Assembly (NCBI GenBank): GCA_024277055.1
Contig: JAJRVZ010000047.1
Coordinates: forward strand, 1 to 42,287
Length of the DNA stretch: 42,287 nt
Direction of reading: 5' to 3'
DNA from: Calditrichota bacterium
GTDB taxonomy: Bacteria; Calditrichota; Calditrichia; JAJRVZ01
Shown here: one piece after another, positions 1-2,835 of the stretch
How the letters are laid out: each line of letters opens with the position of its first letter
Numbering within the stretch: the stretch's first letter is position 1
The notes under the pieces: model-generated
The model's input: only the letters and a program-made list of their open reading frames with translations
What the model was told of the DNA's origin: nothing
Databases searched by the model: none
Made by a program: the position numbers and the translations under genes

Positions 1-1651
1 CCAGTTCCCGTATATTTCCCGGCCAAGAATATTTGCAGAGTTGCTGCATCACTTCATCTGAAATTGCGTTTATGGAGCGGTTGTGAATTTTGTTGAATTT
101 TTCAATAAAATGACGGCACAGGTATTCTATATCGCCGGCCCGCTCGCGCAACGCGGGTAAGTGAATATGTACGGTATTCAATCGATAGAACAGATCCGGT
201 CGAAATTTGCCTTCCTTGATCAGAGCATCCATTTTCCGGTTTGTGGCCGCCAGGATTCGAACATTCACGGAAATGGGATTTGGATTCCCCAGGCGCATTA
301 TTTCCCGTTCCTGCAATACCCGCAACAGTTTTACCTGAATGATGCCGGGTATATCGCCGACTTCGTCCAGAAACAGCGTCCCCCCGCTTGCCAGTTCGAT
401 TAAGCCCTTCTTTTTCACGGCCGCACCGGTGAACGCCCCCTTTTCGTAACCGAACAATTCTCCTTCGAGAAGCGTTTCCGGAATGGCGCTGCAATTTACG
501 GCAATAAAAGGCCCTTCGGCGCGGCGTGAATGCTCATGAATCGCCCGTGCTACCAGTTCTTTACCCGTACCCGTTTCCCCGGTAATCAGAACGCTGATAT
601 CGGTCGGGGCAACTCTGCGGGTCAATTCAAATATTTTTTGCATCACCCTGTCCCGGGCAATCATACCGCTGAACCTGAAACGCTCGGCGGAATACAGCCA
701 ATGGTAAAATCCGGCGACCAGTTGTTCAATATCTTTATATCTGCTTTGCAGGTACGAGCGTCTTCTTGACAAATTCAATTTGATGATACTGTTGATACTT
801 TCAACAGACTGGAAAAAGATATTGGGAAATTTGGCTGACGCGTATTGCGCTTTTACGTTTTCAGTCTGGAAAACAAGGTACAGGTTTTCTCTGTAATTTT
901 TCGCAACCTGCACAATATTCTGAATAATTCCATCATCATCATTTTGTGTGTTTATGATAAGCGCCGGCCTGGAAAGAATGTTTTCCAGTTGTGACAATTC
1001 GACAGGAATCAGACTATGTTTTACGGCAATATCATAGGCCTGTGAAAACTTGGAACTCAGCAATTGTGCCGGCTGATGTATTATTGATTTAAAATAACCG
1101 GCGAAACTTAAAACGGTATTTTTATCATGACCGATCAGAATCAGCTGGTGTCCGCTGATATCATCAACTATTTTGCAGGCAATATCCTTTATGGCATCGC
1201 CGGCATTTATGCCGTATTTTTTCATTTCATCACTCTGCAGAACCTGTTCCGTAAAATCGATCGCCAGGCGGTAGAGCTGGGTAAGAACCGGCCCGGAAAG
1301 TTCGAGATCGAGTGAGAGATTAAACGCTTCCTTGTACTGTGTAAGTTTTGCGGGGTCTGCCGCGACAGGATCATGAACTCCCATCATGATTTCAAAAAAG
1401 CGTTTTGCGGCTTCCTGCTGGTGTAATACTGTCGGGTTGGTTACCGAACGATTGAAAACTTCCGCACAGACTGACCGGAGAAAAGGAACCGTTTCGGTTC
1501 CGAAAATAAATATATCATATCTGCCGTTTGAGTTCAGTACAAGACATTCTTCGACACAATGTTCTTCCATTACCGGTTGGATTTTTTCCAGTATATCCGC
1601 TCCGACAGGATTTTTATTACTGTCCGCTATTTCAAAATGTGATAAATACAT
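1..1651 (-). CDS. Sigma-54-dependent transcriptional activator (AAA+) with N-terminal degenerate glutamyl-tRNA reductase (HemA)-like region; partial, C-terminus beyond left edge
   Basis: Manual reverse-strand translation from ATG at 1651 is open to position 1. AAA+ part: ..[80 protein letters not shown] (Walker A, GAFTGA, Walker B). N-terminal ~320 aa: [160 protein letters not shown], which follows the GluTR domain order. Confidence 0.9.
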   Translation of the reverse strand, partial: [550 protein letters not shown]

Positions 1652-1654
1652 GGT

Positions 1655-2470
1655 TTAATGAAATGAATGTAATTTCGAAAAATAATTGTTAATTACCAGC
1701 ATGGAAAAAATAATCCAGCTGTAGCCGATGATAGAAAAATAGGCCAAACGGTTTCCGGGCCAGTTCAGTTTCTTTTTCCCCAGAAGTGCAAGACCGAAAA
1801 TGAGCCAGGAAATCAGCACGGCGATTAATTTGGGGTCCCAGGACCAATAGGTGCCCCAGGCCGTTTTTCCTGTAATCGCTCCAAGCACAATTCCAAAACT
1901 GTTGAACACAAATCCAAGCGCCAGGCTCAGATGGATTTTTTTTTCAAGAAATGATAGAGAAGGAAGCCGCTCATAAAAATATCCCAGATGCGTGCTTTTT
2001 ATTTCATGAAAAAGAAGCACATACATTAACCCGGATAAAAATGAAAGTGAAAAGGCTGCATACGCCAGCAGATTGAAAATTACATGTACTTCAAAATACA
2101 GGTTTTTTAAAATTTCCGGTGTTGGTGCGGAAACTTCAATAAACAGCATTGCGATTGAATGCAGAATAAAAATAATGCCGGCATGAAAAACGCCCAGAGC
2201 ATAGGACCGTTCTTTAACTATCACTATCCTGTTTAAAACAGCAAAAAACCAGATAAATGTTGTAATTGCCTGAAATGGATCATTCAGCGGTAAATGGCCC
2301 TTTTCCACGCTGAGCATTACCAGAAAAACCGTATGCAAAATTAACCCGAAGACGAAACTTAATCTGGCCGGCCGTAATTCCTTTTCATTTTGAGACTTGA
2401 AATACTTAAAATAAAAATATGCTGAAATAGCATAGGAAACGGGACCGAGAACTCTTAAGAAAACTATCAT
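1655..2470 (-). CDS. Cytochrome c assembly protein, CcsA/HemX-like
   Basis: Multi-TM protein with the WGTYWSWDPK tryptophan-rich motif; stop lies 4 nt before the start of the downstream activator. Confidence 0.85.
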   Translation of the reverse strand: MIVFLRVLGPVSYAISAYFYFKYFKSQNEKELRPARLSFVFGLILHTVFLVMLSVEKGHLPLNDPFQAITTFIWFFAVLNRIVIVKERSYALGVFHAGIIFILHSIAMLFIEVSAPTPEILKNLYFEVHVIFNLLAYAAFSLSFLSGLMYVLLFHEIKSTHLGYFYERLPSLSFLEKKIHLSLALGFVFNSFGIVLGAITGKTAWGTYWSWDPKLIAVLISWLIFGLALLGKKKLNWPGNRLAYFSIIGYSWIIFSMLVINNYFSKLHSFH

Positions 2471-2565: not shown

Positions 2566-2592
2566 AAAAACCCCCGGTATGTAAACCGGGGG
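2566..2592 (-). terminator. Intrinsic terminator-like hairpin (minus-strand read-out of gatB)
   Basis: Perfect 8-bp stem CCCCCGGT/ACCGGGGG (2571-2578/2585-2592), 6-nt loop, flanked by AAAAA on the plus strand (T-run on minus). Confidence 0.6.
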
Positions 2593-2835
2593 CTGATCAG
2601 CAAACAACAGGTATTGTTGTTTAGGGAGGAACTGTTGTGGGATAACATTAATAGGGATTTAATACTACAAAATGAATGCCAAAAATATATGTGCTTATGC
2701 GTATTGTACAAACTGTTAATTTTTAAGGGATTATCAATCAATACCACTTTTGAGGTTTCGCAGATTACCGGGTTCTTGATTTCAATCTGAAACACCGGGT
2801 TTATATTTGAAACAAGAATACGGAGAATGATTTGT

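Follow-up and report, generated by a model that had tools for sequence, protein, structure and literature searches.

The window (the whole stretch of DNA analysed, 42,287 nucleotides in length) opens with a minus-strand gene (2-1651) in which a sequence resembling hemA, the gene for glutamyl-tRNA reductase (GluTR), is fused to a sigma-54 activator. One stop-free frame of 550 aa extends from an ATG at 1651 to the edge of the window and contig at 2. The contig edge cuts this copy at its 3' end, and only the C-terminal helix-turn-helix (HTH) is missing. Encoded in order are GluTR-like catalytic-type and Rossmann-type domains that have lost the catalytic Cys and His and the nucleotide motif (residues 1-285; 797-1651), a long GluTR linker ("spinal") helix that leads into the AAA+ domain and retains DLxxIVxxN...W (residues 283-319; 695-805), a sigma-54 interaction AAA+ domain with GETGTGKE and GAFTGA (residues 331-497; 161-661), and the beginning of an AAA+ lid domain (residues 502-550; 2-148; PF25601), all on the minus strand. 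The sigma-54 activator domain PF00158 matches residues 331-497 with E=4.7e-70 and, with the Walker A and GAFTGA motifs, identifies the product as an enhancer-binding protein. The initial annotation had described an uninterrupted frame in which a sensor region precedes a sigma-54 domain, and the frame, the Pfam match and both motifs bear this out. Complete homologues of 614-655 aa were identified in independent assemblies of several lineages. An assembly join thus does not account for the frame, and the frameshift or join against which the initial annotation had cautioned is ruled out.

The complete copies carry a C-terminal HTH of Fis type (HTH_8), before which the window copy is cut. The DNA-reading helix, RTTLWRK, is invariant in all 15 complete copies and differs from that of six other activators encoded in the window genome. 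The alignments of those NCBIfam equivalogs that were matched are confined to the AAA+ part or to the linker before it.

Directly upstream (1655-2470, minus strand) is a gene for a HemX/CcsA-type membrane protein, identified by a PF01578 domain, conserved His columns and a DPK motif. Genes of this type directly precede the fusion in families f1 (that of the window copy) and f5, at both loci of candidate division KSB1, and in G143 and G229. No HemX-like gene adjoins the fusion in five f4 carriers, though G008, G018 and G026 have hemX beside hemA. The true hemX adjoins the true hemA.

Distribution and origin of the fusion

The search covered the window's class (40 genomes) and 385 genomes, and a scan of contigs added two KSB1 metagenome-assembled genomes (MAGs). 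The family comprises 17 loci, found in Calditrichota and candidate division KSB1, in one MAG that carries the label Gemmatimonadetes and in a further genome. Carriers within the class are G000, G002, G006, G007, G008, G009, G011, G013, G014, G018, G026, G029 and G035, four of which were assigned to Calditrichia/Calditrichota by the contig scan. Those outside are G143 (the MAG labelled Gemmatimonadetes), G229 and the two KSB1 MAGs. All carriers with a taxon name are MAGs.

A supported branch sets all fusions apart in a tree of the N-terminal domain (100/99), and they also group in the AAA+ tree (94/90). Both trees are consistent with one origin of the fusion but, given the long branches, fall short of proof; family f1 is divergent. 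In G029 a break within the AAA+ domain splits the fusion between two frames (498 and 147 aa; L076:9608-11550), through either sequencing error or decay. HemA also lies in longer frames in L027/L045, L041 and L042; these were rejected as fusions, as no GAFTGA was found in them. The start of one of these (L027:1192-3075, from the unrelated genome G074) resembles a sirohaem-synthase-type domain.

Four carriers (G002, G007, G009 and G014) lack hemB, hemC and any hemA above the cut-off, and G143 is also without a canonical hemA. Completeness of the MAGs is 90-98%, which could explain the absence of single genes but hardly that of three genes in four genomes. Thus, the regulator does not need GluTR. 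These genomes exclude a simple GluTR-partner role, and neither a GluTR partner nor the ALA branch is likely to be the necessary signal.

A GluTR fold without the catalytic residues

The hemA model TIGR01035 matches residues 22-323 in order (E=1.6e-14). Its score of 53.7 bits is far under the curated cut-off of 209.55 bits, so the region does not qualify as a GluTR enzyme. GlutR_N matches residues 26-137 at 26.9 bits, against a gathering score of 27.0. A family profile built from 15 relatives retrieved the GluTR structures 1gpj (E=1.4e-19) and 4n7r (E=3.8e-17) from the PDB. The next row had an E-value of 0.23, and GluTR alone gave credible E-values in this search. Residues 1-329 were modelled with AlphaFold (pLDDT 85.6), and Foldseek matched the model to 1gpj with E 8.7e-14. 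Superposition on 1gpj gave Z 21.8 over 316 of 329 residues (rmsd 4.2). The rows that follow the GluTR entries in the fold comparison are Rossmann-only matches with Z about 13.

Both the profile and the model comparison with 1gpj therefore recover the catalytic-type, Rossmann-type and linker regions of GluTR. Profile, fold and family all agree, which rules out a chance alignment. The proposal that the N-terminal ~330 residues resemble GluTR in order thus holds by three routes (TIGR01035, the PDB profile search and the AlphaFold superposition), and the profile and structure searches suggested with it returned GluTR rather than a receiver, GAF or PAS domain. On the GluTR dimerisation linker, one point goes further than the initial annotation. 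The long linker helix is retained, but the C-terminal dimerisation domain of GluTR is absent, and the helix leads into the AAA+ domain, which stands in its place.

When residues of the 17 fusions were compared with those of 29 true HemAs, the catalytic Cys of STCNR was present in every true HemA and in none of the fusions, in line with what the initial annotation had read from the window copy. The active-site His, also found in 29 of 29 true HemAs, is kept in one fusion (G009). Its reported replacement by Arg is correct for the window copy and does not extend to the family, where the residue varies. The degeneration noted in GEPQILGQ and in the Rossmann glycines is likewise family-wide: GEPQI and the GxGE nucleotide motif are lost across the fusions, the latter also excluding them from the GluTR enzymes. 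One Lys common to all 29 true HemAs is Glu in 16 of the 17 fusions. Since the catalytic residues are gone from the whole family, the reading as a pseudoenzyme sensor-regulator holds. A functional GluTR is ruled out by the same losses, and a true HemA is encoded elsewhere in the window genome (G000:C16).

Invariant among the fusions are the linker Trp (W318 in the window copy) and K160. No Cys or His of the sensor is invariant among the 17 fusions, and those that are partly conserved are absent from the window copy. Thus, one conserved haem ligand within the sensor seems unlikely.

Predicted operator and target genes

The likely targets, TonB-receptor/lipoprotein operons and the true hemX-hemA operon, are preceded by a paired palindrome, TTTCAnnnTGAAA twice at ~21 bp spacing, followed by a sigma-54-type promoter. 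The motif was first seen by reading the regions upstream of operons that adjoin the fusion, with -24/-12 sites downstream of the pairs. In the window the predicted enhancer (UAS) is the pair TTTCAAATATAAACCCGGTGTTTCAGATTGAAA at 2780-2812, whose centre precedes a sigma-54-type -24/-12 site, TTGGCATTCATTTTGTA at 2666-2682, by 128 bp. A second, weaker pair (2479-2516) is present beside the start of the HemX-like gene. All three are on the minus strand.

Across 322 kb of loci we counted 24 pairs, compared with 2.1 expected from shuffles. The motif, fixed at this stage, was then tested on the true hem operon. A pair with at most two mismatches precedes hemX or hemA in eight of ten carriers that have hemA and in none of 11 non-carriers (p=2e-4), a comparison that includes the hem locus of the window genome (G000), which was already among the loci of the motif count and had thus been seen beforehand. 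The hemX of G029 is not preceded by a pair, and the hem operon of G026 has only a weak one. Exact pairs occur at 11 sites in seven of the 13 carriers among the 40 genomes and at none in the 27 non-carriers; the reversed motif, used as a control, gave no exact pair in the 40 genomes. One exact site in G018 is unlinked to the fusion and precedes the same lipoprotein-TonB operon that adjoins the fusion in other carriers. With a relaxed pattern the window genome shows two occurrences only, before hemX-hemA and at 2780-2812 of the window. The relaxed pattern also produces scattered one-strand matches in non-carriers, which we take as chance.

Each of the 20 target regions has a sigma-54-type site at a distance of 105-261 bp from the centre of the pair. 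The summed score of these sites is 182, against a null mean of 77 and a null maximum of 115 in 2000 shuffles, though at several loci the promoter is weak when taken singly (p 0.12-0.13). At the level of sequence, the 20 regions thus show predicted enhancer sites upstream of predicted sigma-54 promoters. These data support a model in which the fusion would bind the TTTCAnnnTGAAA pair and activate sigma-54 promoters 105-261 bp downstream. The predicted targets that they support are hemX-hemA and/or outer-membrane TonB-receptor/lipoprotein operons, the latter probably for uptake of haem or iron-porphyrin, and, in some genomes, a putative short RNA.

The candidate RNA in the window (2566-2656, minus strand) would start from the sigma-54 site and end in an intrinsic terminator (about 2594-2566). 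It would be ~90 nt long, with an unpaired UCCUCCC stretch, and its folding z of -3.6 is mostly owed to the terminator. It has no confident match in Rfam; anti-hemB was considered as its identity, and at E 0.05, far below the gathering score, was treated as chance. We regard 2560-2682 as a candidate locus for a haem-responsive small RNA. A similar promoter-terminator arrangement follows the fusion in G011, G013 and G035 (L081, L082 and L083).

TonB receptor genes, with genes for a small lipoprotein or HmuY, repeatedly lie downstream of or divergent from the fusion, and are often followed by a gene for a conserved ~240 aa membrane protein. TIGR01785 (haem/haemoglobin receptor) is the top NCBIfam model for four of the five TonB receptors scanned and the second, after B12, for the fifth; all five score below its cut-off. 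HmuY adjoins the fusion in two carriers, both without hemABC. Within the class HmuY was found in six genomes only, all lacking hemA, hemB and hemC (Fisher p=0.002), a restriction to hemABC-less Calditrichia that pairs haem auxotrophy with haem scavenging.

The small lipoproteins paired with TonB receptors form a family (L076:11778-12215, L080:10894-11367, L084:16117-16644, L172:4174-4659 and L137:7962-8441) of which no scanned copy matched Pfam or NCBIfam, and their AlphaFold model is poor (pLDDT 54). They may be functional analogues of HmuY. The ~240 aa membrane protein that accompanies the TonB/lipoprotein operon is highly conserved and has no convincing Pfam family (L076:14563-15273, L080:13654-14376, L084:13018-13728, L044:2727-3449 and L138:13718-14440); within the class it is confined to four carriers of the fusion plus G039.

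Proposed control of haem supply and competing readings

The reading that we favour, with a probability of roughly 0.7, is that a pseudo-GluTR enhancer-binding protein, often encoded beside a HemX/CcsA paralogue, activates haem supply in haem shortage. The pseudo-GluTR domain would report haem sufficiency, by binding haem directly or through the HemX/CcsA-like membrane protein encoded upstream. In haem-replete cells the AAA+ motor would be held inactive through the linker helix; in shortage the sensor would release it, and from the paired enhancer sites the motor would activate genes for haem synthesis or uptake, uptake being the likely target in bacteria unable to make haem. The fold, the lost catalysis, the operator and the target genes were shown by computation; we infer the signal, the way it arrives (as haem itself or through a HemX-like partner) and the direction of the response, and both the sensor ligand and its haem-responsiveness are read from the target genes only.

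How the signal arrives could be otherwise. It is possible, though we lean against it, that the HemX/CcsA-like protein is the true haem sensor and the pseudo-GluTR a ligand-free docking partner, derived from an ancestral HemX-HemA contact. The upstream HemX-like genes with their retained His columns, the adjacency of true hemX and hemA, and the lack of an invariant haem-ligand residue in the pseudo-GluTR sensor would fit this, as would the reported lowering of GluTR protein level by HemX in B. subtilis and S. aureus (PMC10991733). The five f4 carriers without an adjoining HemX-like gene speak against it. An unlikely reading is that the domain senses redox or iron status, by residual nucleotide binding of the Rossmann domain or by iron, with the haem genes only one element of an iron/respiration regulon. 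In its favour, the sensor keeps the Rossmann-type fold, FeoB is divergent from the fusion operon at the KSB1 loci, and some genomes have c-type cytochrome-like genes and PAS kinases near the fusion; however, GxGE is lost, and the motif pair in the window genome is confined to hemX-hemA and the regulator's own locus.

Two further readings are improbable. Descent of the N-domain from the part of GluTR that binds tRNA and glutamate could mean that the regulator senses charged tRNA-Glu, the GluTR substrate, or the state of the ALA branch instead of haem, but the residues of the catalytic pocket are lost, the Lys common to true HemAs is Glu in nearly every fusion, and the fusion persists without hemA, hemB and hemC. 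It is equally doubtful that the motif belongs to another regulator of coincidentally matching distribution, the fusion controlling something else. Binding of the motif by the fusion is a prediction, and G029 and G026 are imperfect; yet pairs occur in operons adjoining the fusion in several lineages, exact pairs are found in carriers only, the promoters are of sigma-54 type and the recognition helix is invariant.

The preferred reading, control of haem supply by the pseudo-GluTR activator, can be set beside known systems. Like sigma-54 activators of the NtrC/NifA family, the fusion has a PF00158 AAA+ domain with Walker A and GAFTGA, a lid, a Fis-type HTH_8 and enhancers upstream of -24/-12 sites, but its sensor is a degenerate GluTR. 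With GluTR (HemA/GtrR; 1gpj, 4n7r) it shares the fold and, in the same order, the catalytic-type and Rossmann-type domains and the linker helix, whereas it lacks the catalytic Cys, in most copies the active-site His, and the nucleotide motif, and has AAA+ in place of the dimerisation domain. Within this known regulator class the GluTR-derived sensor is a new type, and its regulon is testable. No description of this architecture was found in the literature searched, mostly papers available without subscription. We know of no sigma-54 route for haem homeostasis in these phyla, and the fusion would provide one.

In B. subtilis and S. aureus membrane-bound HemX works with GluTR, whose level is reported to depend on haem (PMC10991733). 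That control is post-transcriptional and acts on GluTR itself, whereas the HemA-like partner here is a transcription activator. HrrSA and ChrSA of Corynebacterium also tie transcription of hemA to haem (PMC10991733), but by two-component repression with unrelated proteins, unlike the sigma-54 activation predicted here. Haem binding is reported for the true GluTRs of S. aureus and M. tuberculosis, and the mechanism by which HemX controls GluTR level was called undiscovered in a 2024 review (PMC10991733). The fusion may offer a tractable system for how HemX acts on GluTR.

More tentatively, at somewhat less than even odds, the fusion and its neighbour may be a duplicated and rewired HemX-HemA pair, a haem-status complex that directly gates a sigma-54 motor controlling both the synthesis and the uptake of haem as well as a small RNA. 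If so, the fusion would be the first enhancer-binding protein whose sensor derives from GluTR, and it would feed back on the operon of the true enzyme. The fusion shows a haem-synthesis enzyme, that of the first committed step, turned into a transcription factor, probably one controlling that very enzyme, and the predicted operator is defined well enough for direct testing.

Other genes were identified near the fusion. In f5 genomes two large genes of PAS/receiver histidine kinase type lie downstream (L083:7637-13558 and L081:2239-8177), preceded by an enhancer pair and a sigma-54-type site. The FeoB-like ferrous iron transporter genes of the two KSB1 genomes (L137:647-2923 and L138:4229-6460) are apparently split into two frames of about 280 and 467 aa.
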